From a virus: a stretch of DNA of 38,087 nucleotides. Location: positions 1 to 38,087 of the IMG/VR virus record IMGVR_UViG_3300045738_001380, one strand, 5' to 3'. Below the pieces are notes generated by a model, which saw only the letters and a program-made list of their open reading frames with translations, ran no database searches and was not told where the DNA came from. Each line of letters begins with the position of its first letter. Within the stretch, counting starts at the first letter, position 1. Of this stretch, positions 8,214 through 38,087 are shown piece after piece. The position numbers were made by a program, and so were the translations under genes.

Positions 8214-8804
8214 TTATTCATACGCTGCCGGATTGAAGTCGATTAATACATTTCCGTCTAGATCGGCCTTGCCTAAGCAACGACCAACTGTAACGCCTTG
8301 ACCAGCAACCACGGGTGTAACACCCATGCTCCCATTTGTTGAGAGTACTACGTTTGCTCCGGCCGCCGCTGTTCCGACGAATCCATCATACAGAATCAGC
8401 CCCTGTCTTAAAATGGGGACTACCTGTCCGCTAACTGAGGCTTGCATTTCTGCAGCCTTTCTTGGGTTATAAATCAATAACTCGCCATTTTCATCAGTAT
8501 CTCTTACGTCATGTAAAAGCATGCCTAACACCCTATCGGTAGCTAGACCTGTATGAACATGAACCTTAGCTTGCACAGCGAAACGAGGACTTACAGTATT
8601 ATTGTAAGTCGCTGCTTGCGCGTGAATTGTCTCTTGAGTAAGCTCATCTGTAGCTTCCCAGCCTGCTGTGGGAACAAGGGCAACTAAAGTGCCTTTATTC
8701 ACCGGCAGAGACTCGGTAGCTCGAGCTTCAAGAGAGAACAAGTTAAGAACATCATATTCATTATACTGTCTGAAAGGACGAAGATCTCTATCAGTATATG
8801 CCAT
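8214..8804 (-). CDS. Head decoration-like protein
   Basis: 196 residues. The sequence is beta-rich with many small residues (VNKGTLVALVPTAGW; ANVVLSTNGSMGVTPVVAGQGVTVGRCLGKADLDGNVLIDF). The 'vtvGrclgkad.dG...v' ending resembles phage capsid decoration proteins and DUF2190-type products that sit between protease and capsid genes. A Shine-Dalgarno (AAGGAA) precedes the ATG, and the capsid gene starts 14 bases downstream. A role stabilising or decorating the capsid surface is inferred from order and composition. Confidence 0.6.
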   Translation of the reverse strand: MAYTDRDLRPFRQYNEYDVLNLFSLEARATESLPVNKGTLVALVPTAGWEATDELTQETIHAQAATYNNTVSPRFAVQAKVHVHTGLATDRVLGMLLHDVRDTDENGELLIYNPRKAAEMQASVSGQVVPILRQGLILYDGFVGTAAAGANVVLSTNGSMGVTPVVAGQGVTVGRCLGKADLDGNVLIDFNPAAYE

Positions 8805-8829
8805 AATTTTATTCCTTTATTTTATTTGT

Positions 8830-10440
8830 TTAACGACTAATTGTGAACTGATCTAAACTAAAAGCCCTTCGGTACTTGTCATGTACTGATGGCTCTGCAG
8901 CGTCTGTTGAATTCGGAATCTCCGAACCCTCTTCTGCTTCAGCTTGATCAACAGCCTCGTCTACTACTTTAGAAACGTTATCCGTTTCTTCGTCAGTGGT
9001 TGACTCAGCATTTAAAACTTCTTCCTTTTTGTTGCTTTCAACAGTTTTTGTCTCAGCATTCGCTTTAACTTCAGCTGCTTTAGCTTCAATATCTTCAATA
9101 ACTTTTCTATTTTTGGCCGACATAAGAACAGCCAATTTTTTAGAAAACGCTTCGAAGTCCTCATCATTCATCTCCTTAATGTCAGAAGCAAGCACTTCAC
9201 GATCTGCATCGTTAAGCACGTATTCCTCATCCATATAGGACATTCTTTGATTGAATTTTTCCTCGGCTTCCTTAGCTGCTCTCTCGGCTTCAAGCTTCTC
9301 CAAAGTGGCTTTGATCTTCTCGGTTTCCTCAGTAAGAACATTATGCTCTTTCGTGAGATTCTCGAATTTCTCTTTGCCTTCTTCGATGGCCTTCTTGTGA
9401 CCGTCGCGCTGTTCGGCGTAACGTTCTGAAGCCTTTTGCAACTCCTCCTCTACGAAGGTAGTAATAGCCGAGGCGTTTAGAGTCTGAATAGACTCATCTG
9501 TAATATCTGTTAATTTCTCAATTTTCATAATATCATTGCTCTCGGTTTTTGTTTCGTTTTTATTATTATATTGGGATCCTTTACTTTTGTCCCACCGTTT
9601 TTTATTAGTTTTGGTTTTGGTTTTGTTTTTTTTGGTCGAATCATCTAATTCGTTCTCATCTATTTGTTTCTCGTCGTTTTCTTTAGGTTTTTTCGTAACT
9701 GCCACTCCCTCAACTTCCGCTGCGGGACTGTTGGTTAGTCCTATTCCCAAAGGAACGATGTCATTAATTACTTGTCGATAGACAAATCGGTCATCGTCAA
9801 GTTTGCCGTCTCCCCCAAAGCACTTTAAGTTATCTTTGAGAGATTCAACTTTTTCCGGATCATCAATGATGTCCGCACCTTCTAGGTTTTTGTTGTCACC
9901 GACTACAACCACAAGGTTATAGTCAGTAAATCCTAATTCCCAACTAGCTGATACGCTAAGGTACCTGTCACTAGTTGGGTCTGCTGATTCTTCGATGATG
10001 TCGGTCAAGTCAGTATTGACGACCTTCCAAAGGACGCCCCCCAACGTTATATTGAACGGTCCATCTAGTTCCTTGACCTGCTCGTCAGATAAAGATTTAT
10101 CTGTTCCGAACTCGCTGAATCCAGCGGTTAAAATTGTTCCCAAGACCCTTTGTCTATTATGTTCTATATTAATAGGCTTATTTATAAAGGATTTATATAG
10201 CCTCATAGCGGTCTTCGTATCTATTACATCTCCATTTCTATTGATACGATTTGCTACGCAAGCATTAAAGGCTATGGGTAAAAGATCTATGTTCTTCTCT
10301 GTGTCAATGTCAGGAAGGAAGTTACCTACGTCCAGTAAACTAGCCATCGCTAGATATTTATCTTTCTCTTCTGAAATTAACGGCTTGATTGTCGAGCTAA
10401 AAATAGTTGTGTATTTATGCATGTCTAATATACTATCCAA
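8830..10440 (-). CDS. Prohead protease fused to a scaffold-like coiled-coil tail
   Basis: 536 residues in two parts. Residues 50-250 resemble phage prohead maturation proteases: a conserved-looking His in KPINIEHNRQRVLGTI (His94) and a serine cluster in YLSVSASWELGF (Ser162-166) could be the His/Ser catalytic pair of the herpes-assemblin-like fold. After a Lys-rich linker (about 255-300), residues 305-520 are highly charged and helical (KAIEEGKEKFENLTKEHNVL onwards), typical of a scaffold. Such fusions let the protease clear the scaffold inside the prohead. The marked start overlaps the preceding gene; an alternative ATG lies 18 bases downstream (MHKYTTIFSS), just past the upstream stop. The protease call is from pattern only. 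Confidence 0.7.
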   Translation of the reverse strand: MDSILDMHKYTTIFSSTIKPLISEEKDKYLAMASLLDVGNFLPDIDTEKNIDLLPIAFNACVANRINRNGDVIDTKTAMRLYKSFINKPINIEHNRQRVLGTILTAGFSEFGTDKSLSDEQVKELDGPFNITLGGVLWKVVNTDLTDIIEESADPTSDRYLSVSASWELGFTDYNLVVVVGDNKNLEGADIIDDPEKVESLKDNLKCFGGDGKLDDDRFVYRQVINDIVPLGIGLTNSPAAEVEGVAVTKKPKENDEKQIDENELDDSTKKNKTKTKTNKKRWDKSKGSQYNNKNETKTESNDIMKIEKLTDITDESIQTLNASAITTFVEEELQKASERYAEQRDGHKKAIEEGKEKFENLTKEHNVLTEETEKIKATLEKLEAERAAKEAEEKFNQRMSYMDEEYVLNDADREVLASDIKEMNDEDFEAFSKKLAVLMSAKNRKVIEDIEAKAAEVKANAETKTVESNKKEEVLNAESTTDEETDNVSKVVDEAVDQAEAEEGSEIPNSTDAAEPSVHDKYRRAFSLDQFTISR

Positions 10441-30374: not shown

Positions 30375-31061
30375 TCAATAAAGGTCTATCTCTCCATCCG
30401 CTAGCATTTTTTTGACTTTCACAAGTATATTTTTCTTAATGTTCTTTATGTGCTTGTATCCCGGGCCCCTATTCTTCTCAGAGGTAGAGTAACCCAAAGT
30501 CTTGGCTAGCTCTTTTTCGTCCTTGCCCTCTATATATAAAAATTTGTATACTTGCCACTCTAAAGGTTTTAAAATTAATTCCATTCTTTCATGCATATGT
30601 TCGGCAGTCTTCTCTATATCTATAGAATCCTCAAATTTACTTGAAACCTCCTTAGTGTGGTTCTCTAGGGGTAAAGCTAACTTAGTATCATGAGCACGTT
30701 TCTTAAATTTCTCCCAATGAGCATAAAGAGGACACTCCGCGCATTGTTTTGTATATATAGTACATAGATCTTCTCCTTCGGCAGCGGCACATCTTAGACA
30801 TGGTCTAGCGAAATTTCCATAATGATTCCTGATTAAATTTTTCAATTGATTGGAGATTATACGATTAATCCATGGGAGGATAGACTTGGAAGAATCGTAT
30901 AAAGTCCATTTCTTATAAATATGTATACGAATAATCTGAGAAACATCATCGAAATCCATCCACGCTAACGCGGTTAGATTCCACTTGTTCCTTCGCTTCG
31001 CTATTTCAGTGTCTATAACGTCGCTATAGTCTTCGTATGTCGGAGGTTTCTTCTTAGTCAT
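30375..31061 (-). CDS. Sigma-like transcription factor with cysteine insert
   Basis: 228 residues. Residues 33-85 match sigma-70 region 2 in pattern (WMDFDDVSQIIRIHIYKKW...ILPWINRIISNQLKNLIRNHYG): an acidic start, an amphipathic helix, then W-I-x-x-I-x-x-N-x-x-x-x-x-I-R. Residues 160-220 resemble region 4 (LEWQVYKFLYIEGKDEKELAKTLGYS, then KHIKNIKKNILVKVKKML), a helix-turn-helix. Between them are five cysteines (88, 91, 100, 107, 110) in a C-x2-C...C...C-x2-C arrangement, probably zinc-binding. It would direct host RNA polymerase to late phage promoters, like T4 gp55, but with two DNA-reading regions. It overlaps the zinc-ribbon gene by 8 bases. Confidence 0.78.
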   Translation of the reverse strand: MTKKKPPTYEDYSDVIDTEIAKRRNKWNLTALAWMDFDDVSQIIRIHIYKKWTLYDSSKSILPWINRIISNQLKNLIRNHYGNFARPCLRCAAAEGEDLCTIYTKQCAECPLYAHWEKFKKRAHDTKLALPLENHTKEVSSKFEDSIDIEKTAEHMHERMELILKPLEWQVYKFLYIEGKDEKELAKTLGYSTSEKNRGPGYKHIKNIKKNILVKVKKMLADGEIDLY

Positions 31062-36210: not shown

Positions 36211-36236
36211 AAAAAAGGGGGGGGGTATTCCCCCCG
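36211..36236 (-). terminator. Rho-independent terminator ending the leftmost small-peptide module
   Basis: On the minus strand GGGGGG-AATA-CCCCCC is followed by three more C and TTTTTT. It lies about 40 bases after the stop of the 19-residue peptide at 36278-36337. Between it and the next gene (36109-36210) there is only a 12-codon frame and AT-rich DNA. Confidence 0.85.
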
Positions 36237-36277: not shown

Positions 36278-36337
36278 TCAATATTCTTGAACCATCGAGC
36301 CGATTACGAAAACAGTTATAAATGTGACGATTAACAT
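36278..36337 (-). CDS. 19-residue membrane peptide, module 5
   Basis: MLIVTFITVFVIGSMVQEY. The peptide is almost wholly hydrophobic apart from the last three residues, so a single transmembrane helix is likely. It has exactly the length, ML start, Val at position 9 and central Ile-Gly of the peptides at 37582, 36862 and, more distantly, 37218. It follows the 47-residue acidic gene by 12 bases and precedes a strong terminator, so it is last in its transcript. No Shine-Dalgarno is clear. Evidence for translation is family conservation rather than initiation signals. Confidence 0.68.
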   Translation of the reverse strand: MLIVTFITVFVIGSMVQEY

Positions 36338-36349
36338 GATTTCTAGCTT

Positions 36350-36493
36350 TTACCTTTCTGATTTCTGATTTTCTTCATTTTGCAAGTCATATGCCTCTTC
36401 GGACTCATTATCCGAGGGAACTTCGACGCCTTCGCACACTCTTTCGAGTAAACGACGCGTCATAATCTCATTTTTATCGAATTCTTCATTCAT
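36350..36493 (-). CDS. Small acidic protein in module 5
   Basis: 47 residues (MNEEFDKNEIMTRRLLERVC, then an acidic Glu/Asn-rich tail ending QKSER). The start ATG lies in the second copy of a 29-bp tandem duplication; the first copy encodes the tail of a short frame whose TGA overlaps this ATG as ATGA. No membrane segment. It sits between the 54-residue membrane protein and the 19-residue peptide in one transcript. Unknown function. Confidence 0.6.
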   Translation of the reverse strand: MNEEFDKNEIMTRRLLERVCEGVEVPSDNESEEAYDLQNEENQKSER

Positions 36494-36522
36494 ATCTCAT
36501 TTTTATCGAATTCTTTATTCAT
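36465..36522. repeat. 29-bp tandem duplication at a gene start
   Basis: Two abutting copies (36465-36493 and 36494-36522) differ at one position. Each encodes, on the minus strand, an ATG and the first ten codons of the acidic protein (MN-E/K-EFDKNEI). The upstream copy ends in TGA immediately overlapping the downstream ATG. This looks like a recent slippage or duplication event that created a short leader frame. Confidence 0.9.
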
Positions 36523-36552
36523 AGTCATAGTATAACACATCAGGTGAGACAT

Positions 36553-36717
36553 TTACAGTCCTATCGTTAAAATATCTATCGCCTCGATGAGTTGAAAGCC
36601 ATAATCAAGAATGATGGCGATGAACATGAGCGTGACCGCGAACTTTATCATCGGCATGAATACTTCGTCGAGGAACATTTTGTTGAATTCAGAGTTTAGG
36701 TCTTTTATCGTTTTCAT
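36553..36717 (-). CDS. Small single-span membrane protein, module 5
   Basis: 54 residues from MKTIKDLNSEFNK. A hydrophobic segment (MIKFAVTLMFIAIILDYGFQLI, about 24-45) is a probable membrane span; the N-terminus is charged. A longer frame reaching 36759 is unlikely because it runs through the promoter. The chosen ATG lies at the predicted +1 of the promoter at 36724-36752, so the mRNA would be leaderless. First gene of module 5. Confidence 0.72.
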   Translation of the reverse strand: MKTIKDLNSEFNKMFLDEVFMPMIKFAVTLMFIAIILDYGFQLIEAIDILTIGL

Positions 36718-36723
36718 TACTAT

Positions 36724-36752
36724 AATATACCACATAAAAGTCACTTTGTCAA
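36724..36752 (-). promoter_or_regulatory. Near-consensus sigma70 promoter, module 5
   Basis: Minus strand: TTGACA (36747-36752), 17-base spacer, TATATT (36724-36729). The predicted +1 is 36717, the A of the start codon. The spacer ends in TGTGG, shared with modules 2 and 4. Confidence 0.85.
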
Positions 36753-36759
36753 GAGACAA
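36746..36759. promoter_or_regulatory. Operator-like inverted repeat over the -35 box, module 5
   Basis: TTGTC-AAGA-GACAA, a perfect 5-bp inverted repeat, overlaps the TTGACA hexamer. Identical copies sit at the same place in modules 2 and 3; module 4 has only half. A repressor site is a natural reading, unproved. Confidence 0.5.
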
Positions 36760-36777
36760 TGTGTCACACCTCAGGGC

Positions 36778-36797
36778 CTCAGGGCCCGGGGCCTGAG
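36778..36797. repeat. GC-rich hairpin upstream of the module 5 promoter
   Basis: CTCAGGGCCCGGGGCCTGAG, almost fully self-complementary. Similar hairpins stand at 37501-37522 and 37949-37970 just upstream of the other promoters. They may end the preceding module's transcript, but no T-tract follows, so ordinary termination is not certain. Confidence 0.6.
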
Positions 36798-36831
36798 ATC
36801 GGCTTCGCGTTCGACGCGCGTGTGAGTGTTA

Positions 36832-36863
36832 CGCGCTATTACGAGCCCTCATTTGAGGGATCT
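36832..36863. repeat. Module 3' element, copy 1
   Basis: This element contains CTATTACG and TTGAGGGATCT on the plus strand. It overlaps the stop codon of the 19-residue peptide in module 4. Within it CCCTCATTTGAGGG can form a 6-bp hairpin. Related copies are at 37032, 37096, 37159, 37547 and 37994. Confidence 0.7.
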
Positions 36864-36921
36864 AGCTCTGAAACACAGACAGACCGATCCAAAAAACAAA
36901 GAAGAAGGTTAAGAGTAACAT
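36862..36921 (-). CDS. 19-residue membrane peptide, module 4
   Basis: MLLLTFFFVFWIGLSVFQS. It is the only frame in its transcript: the ATG lies two or three bases past the predicted +1 of a near-consensus promoter at 36930-36958. It shares exact length and pattern with the other three complete peptides (ML at the start, Thr5, Val9, Ile12-Gly13, Ser15-Val16). A transmembrane helix is likely. Finding this peptide alone behind a strong promoter argues that it is the key product of the module. Confidence 0.72.
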   Translation of the reverse strand: MLLLTFFFVFWIGLSVFQS

Positions 36922-36929
36922 TATACTAT

Positions 36930-36958
36930 AATATACCACACAAATCAGTGTTTGTCAA
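36930..36958 (-). promoter_or_regulatory. Near-consensus sigma70 promoter, module 4
   Basis: Minus strand: TTGACA (36953-36958), 17-base spacer, TATATT (36930-36935). The upstream block differs from the other modules: only one arm of the inverted repeat is present, so its control may differ. Confidence 0.83.
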
Positions 36959-37031
36959 GCGATTCTTTCAGAAAAATATTAAGATCTCGAGCCCCCGGCC
37001 CCGAGTAGCTGTCGAGTGCGTGTGTGTGTTG

Positions 37032-37063
37032 CGCGCTATTGCGCACTCTCACTTGAGGGGTCC
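37032..37063. repeat. Module 3' element, copy 2
   Basis: CTATTGCGCACTCTCACTTGAGGGG. First of three copies spaced 63-64 bases apart (37032, 37096, 37159) in the gene-free stretch 36959-37217. The stretch between copies is G/C homopolymer-rich. I see no gene there. Confidence 0.7.
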
Positions 37064-37095
37064 ACTATTCACCCAAGAGGGGGTGGGGGTGGCTA

Positions 37096-37127
37096 CATAC
37101 TATTACGCACTCTCACTTGAGGGGTTC
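37096..37127. repeat. Module 3' element, copy 3
   Basis: CTATTACGCACTCTCACTTGAGGGG. Middle copy of the tandem set, flanked by runs of G and C. A possible remnant of repeated module ends. Confidence 0.7.
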
Positions 37128-37158
37128 ACCATGCCCCCCGGGGGGGCGGGGGGGGCTA

Positions 37159-37190
37159 CATACTATTACGCGCGTACACTTGAGGGATCT
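37159..37190. repeat. Module 3' element, copy 4
   Basis: CTATTACGCGCGTACACTTGAGGGATCT. It lies 28 bases downstream (minus strand) of the 19-residue peptide stop of module 3, after a C7/G9 hairpin. Confidence 0.7.
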
Positions 37191-37217
37191 GCTATTACAC
37201 CCCCCCCCACGGGGGGG

Positions 37218-37277
37218 CTACATGCGCTGGAGCATTAGCCACGCGTAGCACACTATAATGAGAATGAGTATCAGCAT
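37218..37277 (-). CDS. 19-residue membrane peptide, module 3
   Basis: MLILILIIVCYAWLMLQRM. Hydrophobic apart from the QR near the end. The ATG comes four bases after the stop of the 55-residue gene, with no Shine-Dalgarno, so re-initiation or coupling is likely. Its DNA is almost identical to the partial gene at the right edge (two differences in 54 bases). It shares ML, Val9 and the exact length with the other three peptides. Confidence 0.7.
   Translation of the reverse strand: MLILILIIVCYAWLMLQRM
37220..37273. repeat. 54-bp direct repeat, left copy
   Basis: Matches 38034-38087 at 52 of 54 positions. It covers most of the 19-residue peptide gene, showing that at least two modules arose by recent duplication. 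The right copy is cut by the window edge, so the true repeat may be longer. Confidence 0.9.
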
Positions 37278-37281
37278 CAGT

Positions 37282-37449
37282 CTAATTCAGGGGTAAGCTG
37301 AACACGTTCACCACACACGCGTCTACCCACATTACGCGCTTGGCCGGATACCAATCATTTGTAGCGCAGTTCGCAGCCTGCGTGCTAGTCATATGGAAGT
37401 AGGTGGCAGTGCTGCCATCGTCAAAGGTAATAGTCCAATCGTTAATCAT
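37282..37449 (-). CDS. Small protein of module 3, leaderless start
   Basis: 55 residues (MINDWTITFDDGSTATYFHM onwards, ending VFSLPLN). A longer frame to 37476 would begin inside the promoter, so I chose the ATG at 37449, which falls at the predicted +1. The protein is not hydrophobic overall and has two cysteines and several aromatic residues. It begins with a beta-like TITFDDGS segment. No family recognised. It precedes the 19-residue peptide by four bases. Confidence 0.68.
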   Translation of the reverse strand: MINDWTITFDDGSTATYFHMTSTQAANCATNDWYPAKRVMWVDACVVNVFSLPLN

Positions 37450-37454
37450 ACTAT

Positions 37455-37483
37455 AATATAACCCATAAATGACCATTTGTCAA
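37455..37483 (-). promoter_or_regulatory. Near-consensus sigma70 promoter, module 3
   Basis: Minus strand: TTGACA (37478-37483), 17-base spacer, TATATT (37455-37460). The ATG of the 55-residue gene lies within one base of the predicted +1. The 30 bases from 37477 upstream match module 2 exactly. Confidence 0.85.
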
Positions 37484-37490
37484 GAGACAA
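37477..37490. promoter_or_regulatory. Operator-like inverted repeat over the -35 box, module 3
   Basis: TTGTC-AAGA-GACAA, identical to the sites at 36746 and 37925, overlapping the TTGACA hexamer. Confidence 0.5.
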
Positions 37491-37500
37491 TGTGGCACAC

Positions 37501-37522
37501 GCTCAGCACCCGGGGCCTGAGC
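37501..37522. repeat. GC-rich hairpin upstream of the module 3 promoter
   Basis: GCTCAG at one end pairs with CTGAGC at the other around a GC-rich loop. A second, stronger hairpin follows at 37528-37546 (GCGGGCCC-CAC-GGGCCCGC). Together they lie downstream of the module 2 peptide on the minus strand and could stop its transcript, although no T-tract is present. Confidence 0.6.
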
Positions 37523-37527
37523 CATAG

Positions 37528-37546
37528 GCGGGCCCCACGGGCCCGC
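37528..37546 (-). terminator. Strong GC hairpin after module 2
   Basis: A perfect 8-bp stem GCGGGCCC/GGGCCCGC with a three-base loop, 36 bases past the stop of the 19-residue peptide. It lacks a T-tract, so it may be a pause or processing hairpin rather than an intrinsic terminator. Confidence 0.45.
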
Positions 37547-37577
37547 TTTGTTATTACAGGTTCTATTGGGGGGATCT
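37547..37577. repeat. Module 3' element, degenerate copy 5
   Basis: GTTATTACAGGTTCTATTGG followed by GGGGATCT. It keeps the TATTAC and GGGATCT ends but not the middle. It lies four bases after the stop of the module 2 peptide, in the same place as copy 6 in module 1. Confidence 0.5.
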
Positions 37578-37581
37578 CGTT

Positions 37582-37641
37582 TTACATTTGGTTGACGCTG
37601 GCCCCAATGTACAGCACCACGATGAGGGTAACAACCAACAT
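37582..37641 (-). CDS. 19-residue membrane peptide, module 2
   Basis: MLVVTLIVVLYIGASVNQM. The ATG overlaps the TGA of the 37-residue membrane protein (TGATG), a classical coupling arrangement. Length and pattern match the other peptides: ML, Thr5, Val9, Ile12-Gly13, Ser15-Val16, Gln18. It is last in the transcript and is followed by the shared 3' element and GC hairpins. Confidence 0.72.
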   Translation of the reverse strand: MLVVTLIVVLYIGASVNQM

Positions 37642-37754
37642 CACAGGCTCAACAACATCGCCAACACGAAGATTGCCACGGGCGTAACCATCACAGCAGC
37701 AACGATTATGCCAACCAGTTCCAACATCTCTCTCTCATCTCTTGTTAGTTTCAT
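37641..37754 (-). CDS. Small single-span membrane protein, module 2
   Basis: 37 residues: a charged N-terminus (MKLTRDEREMLEL) and then a hydrophobic stretch (VGIIVAAVMVTPVAIFVLAM) to the C-terminus, one membrane span. It overlaps the 19-residue peptide start by one base. There is only a weak ribosome site (AAGAAT). The layout resembles module 5, where a charged-start membrane protein also precedes the 19-residue peptide. Confidence 0.68.
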   Translation of the reverse strand: MKLTRDEREMLELVGIIVAAVMVTPVAIFVLAMLLSL

Positions 37755-37796
37755 ATTCTTAAATTGTAATGCCACTTACAAACGTCTCTCGCGTTC

Positions 37797-37892
37797 TTAT
37801 GTTTCCTCACCGTTTGCAGAGGTGGCGTCCGTGAGCAGTAGAGTCTTTCTCCAGCCGATTTGCAGTGTGGTCTGCGTGGCTAATACCCTCAC
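37797..37892 (-). CDS. Possible 31-residue GTG-start frame, module 2
   Basis: The frame reads from a GTG about five bases past the predicted +1 of the module 2 promoter: residues beginning VRVLATQTTLQIGW and ending ANGEET. Not hydrophobic, no motif. It occupies the same first-gene position as the 55- and 54-residue genes in modules 3 and 5. The start is weak and the region could simply be a leader, so confidence is low. Confidence 0.3.
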   Translation of the reverse strand: MRVLATQTTLQIGWRKTLLLTDATSANGEET

Positions 37893-37902
37893 GAACTACT
37901 AT

Positions 37903-37931
37903 AATATACCACACATTTGGCCCCTTGTCAA
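37903..37931 (-). promoter_or_regulatory. Near-consensus sigma70 promoter, module 2
   Basis: Minus strand: TTGACA (37926-37931), 17-base spacer ending TGTGG, TATATT (37903-37908). Predicted +1 near 37896. There is no ATG at that place, unlike modules 3 and 5; a GTG lies at 37892. Confidence 0.85.
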
Positions 37932-37938
37932 GAGACAA
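37925..37938. promoter_or_regulatory. Operator-like inverted repeat over the -35 box, module 2
   Basis: TTGTC-AAGA-GACAA, identical to the sites in modules 3 and 5. The block continues identically into GCTCAG of the upstream hairpin. Confidence 0.5.
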
Positions 37939-37948
37939 TGTGGCACAC

Positions 37949-37970
37949 GCTCAGGCCCCGGGCCCTGAGC
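37949..37970. repeat. GC-rich hairpin upstream of the module 2 promoter
   Basis: GCTCAGG and CCTGAGC form a 7-bp stem around a GC core. A second hairpin lies at 37979-37993 (GGGGCC-TAC-GGCCCC). Both are downstream of the partial module 1 peptide on the minus strand. Confidence 0.6.
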
Positions 37971-37993
37971 CTTAGGCGGGGGCCTACGGCCCC

Positions 37994-38027
37994 GACCTAC
38001 TATTACGCGCCCCTATTAGAGGGATCT
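37994..38027. repeat. Module 3' element, copy 6
   Basis: CTATTACGCGCCCCTATTAG followed by AGGGATCT. It lies four bases past the stop of the module 1 peptide; CCCTATTAGAGGG can form a small hairpin. Confidence 0.65.
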
Positions 38028-38031
38028 CGTT

Positions 38032-38087
38032 TTACATGCGCTGGAGCATCATCCACGCGTAGCACACTATAATGAGAATGAGTATCA
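38032..38087 (-). CDS. 19-residue membrane peptide, module 1, cut by the right edge
   Basis: The last 18 codons plus two bases of a gene almost identical to the module 3 peptide: ILILIIVCYAWMMLQRM before a TAA stop. The start codon lies outside the window. It shows that the module array continues to the right. Confidence 0.65.
   Translation of the reverse strand, partial: ILILIIVCYAWMMLQRM
38034..38087. repeat. 54-bp direct repeat, right copy
   Basis: Matches 37220-37273 at 52 of 54 positions; truncated by the window end. Confidence 0.9.

Follow-up and report, generated by a model that had tools for sequence, protein, structure and literature searches.

Can open reading frames of 19 codons be genes and, if so, what might peptides so short do for a phage? 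This question is raised by one end of an uncultured viral record (IMG/VR record IMGVR_UViG_3300045738_001380; 38,087 bases, analysed in its entirety and henceforth referred to as the window), where the minus strand carries four complete frames of exactly 19 codons (W1 to W4) and a fifth (W5) that is cut by the window edge (see Table 1). An earlier interpretation made from the letters alone (the sequence-only reading) had proposed that these frames encode membrane peptides which are kept by selection and close small transcription modules. We confirmed the observation itself, with all five frames and their translations being as described there, and found the overall interpretation to be partly supported. 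Judged by sequence comparison, they are genuine genes that belong to a single peptide family, with selection acting on the peptide.

A family of 19-codon genes

All four complete peptides begin with Met-Leu and have Val at position 9, and three of them share Thr5 and Ile12-Gly13, just as the sequence-only reading had it. Its statement that three of the four differ strongly in DNA fell short: all four do, with pairwise identities of only 33–50%, too low for recent duplication to be the explanation. The near-copy in the window is the partial W5, which matches W3 at 53 of 56 nucleotides, with the identity ending at the stop codon, and which by this comparison is a recent copy of W3. Copying alone was thus rejected as the origin of the frames, the W3/W5 pair excepted.

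We compared the 2 kb region containing the frames with its dinucleotide shuffles. Hydrophobic 19-codon ATG frames occurred four times, against a shuffle mean of 0.015 (maximum 1 in 200); when all hydrophobic ATG frames of 15–25 codons were counted the shuffle mean was 0.165, and the observed number was still four, each of 19 codons. No hydrophobic 19-codon ATG frame was found on the opposite strand of the region. Chance origin was rejected on the basis of these shuffles and of the leave-group-out profile ranking described below. Accidental hydrophobicity arising from T-rich DNA was also rejected: T makes up 27–48% of the frames, yet it occupies 8–12 of the 18 second codon positions.

A PhoH search yielded two related contigs, L001 and L002 (PhoH 85–86% identical), each of which contains four 19-codon frames, two of them at positions orthologous to window frames (fam1 and fam3, at the positions of W1 and W3, respectively; the others are fam4 and fam5). 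So far the family comprises 12 complete peptides in three phages, with four or five related genes in each. Pooled over the four L001/L002 pairs (76 orthologous codons), the dN/dS ratio was 0.21 (pS 0.57, pN 0.19; Fisher p = 1.3e-6), which points to selection on the peptide itself; the sequence-only reading had suggested this calculation as a check. For the window compared with L001/L002 the value was 0.53 (p = 0.037), synonymous sites being close to saturation. The exact length of 19 codons is kept in both contigs, including the fam5 pair, in which a 5-nt boundary difference shifts the TTG start relative to the upstream stop.

Similarity between the groups lies in the placement of residues. 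Ungapped similarity among the five paralogue groups was greater than in all 5,000 column permutations (p = 0.0002), and likewise when only the hydrophobic core was permuted. Positions 2, 5, 9 and 13–16 are common across the groups, between which up to 9 of 19 residues are identical. When each group was scored with a profile that left it out, all 12 complete members came out ahead of every 19-codon frame from outside the family in 3.4 Mb of phage DNA (4,276 distinct frames; member scores of 18–29, compared with 12–14.5 for the best background), and members also exceeded nearly all shuffles of their own cores (p = 0.0002–0.009). Given that the first selection of some members was made by eye, on hydrophobicity and a length of 19 codons, these family tests bear on shared residue positions and not on length. 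The consensus is approximately M-L-[IL]-[ILV]-T-[LI]-[IF]-x-V-[WFY]-x-[IA]-[GW]-[SL]-[MSA]-V-x-[RQ]-[MY]. Residues 1–16 are uncharged in every member, forming a core of about 16 residues that is followed by a 3-residue polar, often basic, tail. The orthologue dN/dS, the positional similarity across groups and the conserved length all agree with the earlier proposal that selection on the peptide, and not copying alone, has shaped these frames.

Modules, promoters and translation starts

Every 19-codon frame is the final frame of its module, and one module, that of W2, consists of nothing else, as had been noticed from the letters. The window modules that end in W1 to W4 each begin with a near-perfect promoter of the form TTGACA-N17-TATATT. 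In L001 and L002 there are 13 TTGACA-N16-18-TATATT promoters each, upstream of phoH; on the 95 kb L002 contig, 13 of 14 matches fall within 6.7 kb, the remaining one lying elsewhere on the other strand. A GC palindrome is present at most 90 nt upstream of the promoter in 4 of 4 cases in the window, 11 of 15 in L001 and 12 of 15 in L002, followed in the sense strand by A and not T, i.e., without a U-tract. The TTGACA promoters probably serve the host polymerase, a view supported by the sigma-like factor encoded in the window, and it is from these two features that we infer early timing.

In most of 63 promoters on eight contigs, the first ATG lies 5–9 nt past the −10 box, with a mode of 6. The same holds for 60 of 97 promoter matches in a sample drawn from numerous other viral contigs (the 97 being the listed matches that have a frame of 15 codons or more no further than 50 nt away). 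Such spacing would place the AUG at about +1, which makes leaderless mRNAs, and translation of the first genes of modules from them, likely. Leaderless AUG mRNAs occur in alphaproteobacteria, 171 of them in Sinorhizobium meliloti (PMC3616915). The modules suggest that an entire early region may be translated in this way. The spacing was seen in the window, L001, L002, L010, L014, L026, L027, L204 and many of the loci L081–L200, and in a promoter scan of all viral contigs the matches listed came mainly from other phages, many with an ATG 5–9 nt past the −10 box; a frequent leaderless-looking product in other viral contigs is a protein starting MIDEIICEECG. As regards the 19-codon genes, W3, W4, fam3, fam4 and fam5 start at or beside an upstream stop codon, and Shine-Dalgarno-like sites precede fam4, fam5 and the frame labelled A3.

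The sequence-only reading knew of no described system with this layout, which was too strong a statement: promoter early stem-loop (PeSL) cassettes of T4-type phages are modules that shuffle small early genes (PMC4503421). Like PeSL cassettes, the modules studied here have dense host-type (and so presumably early) promoters between small genes with a palindrome near each, and are shuffled among related phages; the host-type promoter is repeated between small genes four times in the window and 13 times each in L001 and L002. Unlike those cassettes, they have palindromes lacking a sense-direction U-tract and leaderless-looking first genes, and many of them end in one peptide family. PeSL elements are linked to gene shuffling between related phages; in L001 and L002 modules are replaced or reordered, with the promoter–palindrome elements as a candidate cause. 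The stem-loop of a PeSL also serves as a terminator beside the promoter, a candidate function of the palindromes here. By their terminase (distant matches, below 60%) the present phages, unlike the carriers of PeSL cassettes, are not recognisably T4-type. The cassettes are reportedly the subject of Arbiol et al. 2010 and Comeau et al. 2014.

Divergence islands and possible roles

L001 and L002 are 95–100% identical across many stretches but differ in module order, are mosaic in their identity and have replaced modules. All four of their 19-codon frames lie within poorly conserved stretches, being 70–80% identical and thus below most other module genes (mostly 92–100%). The clearest case is fam4, where the frame is 69% identical, compared with 96% in the 150 nt upstream and 97% in the 100 nt downstream, and the divergence runs from about the start codon to the stop codon. 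Specifically, pS fell from 0.62 in the frame to 0.031 in the 242-aa gene next to it (p = 2.6e-15 for the difference overall). Since point mutation together with amino-acid selection cannot yield such synonymous divergence, the fam4 island was likely made by allele replacement through recombination, with hypermutation as a possible alternative cause. The island edge is similarly sharp on the upstream side of fam5, and the W3/W5 similarity also breaks at the stop codon. Taken further, fam4 and W3/W5 could mean that the 19-codon frames are micro-cassettes swapped as exact start-to-stop units, such that the peptide repertoire is kept while allele replacement changes specificity in an arms race at the membrane; we regard this as a speculative extension with rather low odds.

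As to function, we lean towards reading the peptides as early, minimal single-span membrane peptides, placed last in their modules, which bind host membrane proteins with a varied repertoire. In each small early module a host-type promoter would drive a first gene that is probably leaderless, and the 19-codon gene would then be translated via its own Shine-Dalgarno site or stop–start coupling, the W2 module offering that gene alone. Shortly after infection the peptides would enter the inner membrane of the host and attach to particular membrane proteins, altering functions of the host or excluding competing phages. The presence of several diverged paralogues in each genome, together with the likely replacement of single frames between related phages, suggests that targets vary, as in superinfection exclusion or counter-defence. 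Membrane location and early expression are reasonable to infer from the uncharged 16-residue cores, the host-type promoters and the sigma-like factor. T4 Imm and lambda CIII are small early phage proteins that act at the host membrane, with lengths of 54–83 residues; the present peptides differ from them in having 19 residues and forming a multi-copy family.

Several findings weigh against this reading. The 19-residue family is found in three phages only, and the distant relatives L010, L202, L203 and L214 have hydrophobic frames of 21–25 residues instead (one of those in L010 precedes the same tRNA-Cys as fam4). C-terminal charge varies from −1 to +2, a clear Shine-Dalgarno site is missing in W1, W3 and the frame labelled A1, and the orthologue dN/dS draws on few codons. 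Sharp boundaries on both sides are seen in fam4 only: the fam3 island covers half of the upstream gene and the fam1 flanks diverge too, so exact frame boundaries are not general. Further alleles, sought via the family-1 DNA motif, the DWTITF protein and the 242-aa gene, came essentially from L001 and L002 alone, with other matches being weak and partial or 42–50% relatives without 19-codon frames. Neither a relative of the family nor a cultured relative was found in the searched sources, where collection scans used exact-pattern matching and may hence miss more distant relatives.

The main rival is that the peptides resemble Ibs or TisB, depolarising the host membrane with expression restrained by antisense RNA or dose. 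IbsC of E. coli, from the Ibs/Sib type I toxin-antitoxin system, is itself a 19-residue hydrophobic inner-membrane peptide that is toxic when overexpressed (PMC8309996; PMC7192591), and the family resembles it in length, polar tail and hydrophobicity, from which a single span is predicted here. However, the family is phage-borne, has several diverged paralogues and comes last in operons, and no antisense RNA was found: an Rfam search of the region gave no known RNA family, the window frames have no antisense promoter-like site, and only weak antisense sites (9/12) occur in or near three L001 frames. Moreover, IbsC toxicity withstands extensive mutation and even frameshifts (PMC7192591), whereas here positions are fixed across diverged paralogues, and early depolarisation would presumably damage the phage. 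We consider an Ibs-like role improbable. Slightly less probable still are host-takeover peptides with a single fixed target (e.g., a membrane protease or secretion component), whose paralogues adjust only dose or timing; the positions common across groups would suit them, but paralogues have few identical residues, and close relatives carry sharply different alleles.

Alternatively, the frames may act in cis: translating any hydrophobic stretch would bring the ribosome to the GC palindrome and tune termination or polarity, leaving the peptide as a by-product. The stop codon does lie inside the palindrome in fam3 and fam5 of L001 and L002, and the frames are always final in their modules; however, fam1 and fam4 frames end outside the palindrome and selection is seen on amino acids and residue positions, which makes a cis role very unlikely. 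Least likely of all are late-acting holin-like or lysis-timing peptides. The small size, hydrophobicity, several basic tails and multiple copies per genome would allow such a role, but host-type promoters fit it poorly, known holins are far longer than 19 residues and the frames have no identified lysis gene next to them, although none was systematically sought.

If expressed as the preferred reading of host-directed membrane peptides supposes, the family would rank with the shortest conserved protein families known in phages. Its peptides are close to the least length that can span a membrane, and their genes would be invisible to gene callers and profile libraries requiring at least 20 residues. 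Repetition at module ends and frame-sized islands offer a testable case that phages control membrane functions of the host with minimal peptides and exchange these peptides among themselves.

Genome context and further conserved elements

The small modules occupy the leading end of the window minus strand, between 38,087 and roughly 36,200. They are followed by an 83-aa gene, phoH, a ClpP-like head maturation protease and other small genes, and further along by the sigma-like factor, an ERCC4-type nuclease, and then terminase and collagen-like structural genes. No close isolate relative was found, with terminase matches below 60% identity and mostly to Bacillus and Lactococcus phages; a terminase search of bacterial genome contigs gave no match, and the 54-aa protein that opens the W1 module has no isolate relatives.

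Table 1 Features of the window and the family members in L001 and L002
Feature	Position	Strand	Remarks
W1, 19-residue peptide MLIVTFITVFVIGSMVQEY	36278..36337	-	closes its module
W2, 19-residue peptide MLLLTFFFVFWIGLSVFQS	36862..36921	-	sole frame of module; ATG 8 nt past −10 box
W3, 19-residue peptide MLILILIIVCYAWLMLQRM	37218..37277	-	start 4 nt past stop of upstream frame
W4, 19-residue peptide MLVVTLIVVLYIGASVNQM	37582..37641	-	ATG overlaps upstream stop codon (TGATG)
W5, partial 19-residue peptide, ...ILILIIVCYAWMMLQRM*	38032..38087	-	cut by window edge
fam1 (W1 position): L001 MLILSIIAVYVFGSMTWRM; L002 MLLAVIILVYVFGSMTQRL	L001 9506; L002 9511		W1 orthologues
fam3 (W3 position): L001 MLLIALIVVWWTWLAVEQV; L002 MLLLALIVVWWVWLAVDQY	L001 8515; L002 8521		behind same DWTITF frame as W3
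fam4: L001 MLIITIFMIWCAYSMARRM; L002 MIAITIFMCWCAWSMLKRM			precedes tRNA-Cys
fam5: L001 MILLTLLIIVTIWLMVKRY; L002 MILLTLLIVITIWLMVKRY			TTG start
Promoter TTGACA-N17-TATATT, W1 module	36724..36752	-	first ATG 6 nt past −10 box
Promoter TTGACA-N17-TATATT, W2 module	36930..36958	-	
Promoter TTGACA-N17-TATATT, W3 module	37455..37483	-	first ATG 5 nt past −10 box
Promoter TTGACA-N17-TATATT, W4 module	37903..37931	-	followed by conserved structured RNA, then W4 module
GC palindrome CTCAGGGCCCGGGGCCTGAG	36778..36797	.	upstream of promoter 36752
GC palindrome CTCGAGCCCCCGGCCCCGAG	36986..37005	.	upstream of promoter 36958; read from sequence
GC palindrome	37501..37522	.	upstream of promoter 37483
GC palindrome	37949..37970	.	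upstream of promoter 37931
54-aa hydrophobic protein MKTIKDLN...	36553..36717	-	opens W1 module; relatives in L201-L204
47-aa acidic protein	36350..36493	-	W1 module; 46-aa orthologue at L001 9332
55-aa protein MINDWTITF...	37282..37449	-	upstream of W3; ATG 5 nt past −10 box; orthologue L001 8334
37-aa hydrophobic protein MKLTRDEREMLELV...	37641..37754	-	upstream of and overlapping W4
Intrinsic-terminator-like hairpin	36216..36235	-	about 40 nt past W1
Phage sigma-like factor	30375..31061	-	Pfam Sigma70_r2, E 2.3e-5, just above curated cut-off

Other elements of the region are also conserved. The structured RNA behind the promoter at 37931–37903 extends for about 120–146 nt from the promoter (window 37757–37902, minus strand; L010 3527–3645; L014 4300–4445); two hairpins are kept in the three phages, including two base pairs in which both partners have changed (AU to GC), and it has no Rfam match. 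After W3, at 37018–37216, there are three tandem GC-rich units of 63–64 nt, each with a GC hairpin, which keep the stretch CCCTCAAGTG...GCGTAATAG; one related copy lies after each of W2, W4 and W5. The 54-aa protein, with conserved FMPMIKF...LDYGFQLIEAIDIL and no assigned family, also occurs in the related uncultured phages L201–L204, L010 and L014, and a 32-aa membrane protein (MKDDYRDIYFV...GIYIETL; L001 8944–9042) is strongly conserved in L002, L010, L014, L202, L203 and L209. Finally, there is a manA RNA (RF01745) in the stretches L001 4413–4850 and L002 4101–4504, preceded in L001 by a stretch that resembles a tRNA and itself follows a strong promoter, while L014 has a tmRNA (8549–8976). 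The manA RNA of these phages may belong to a permuted phage tmRNA.

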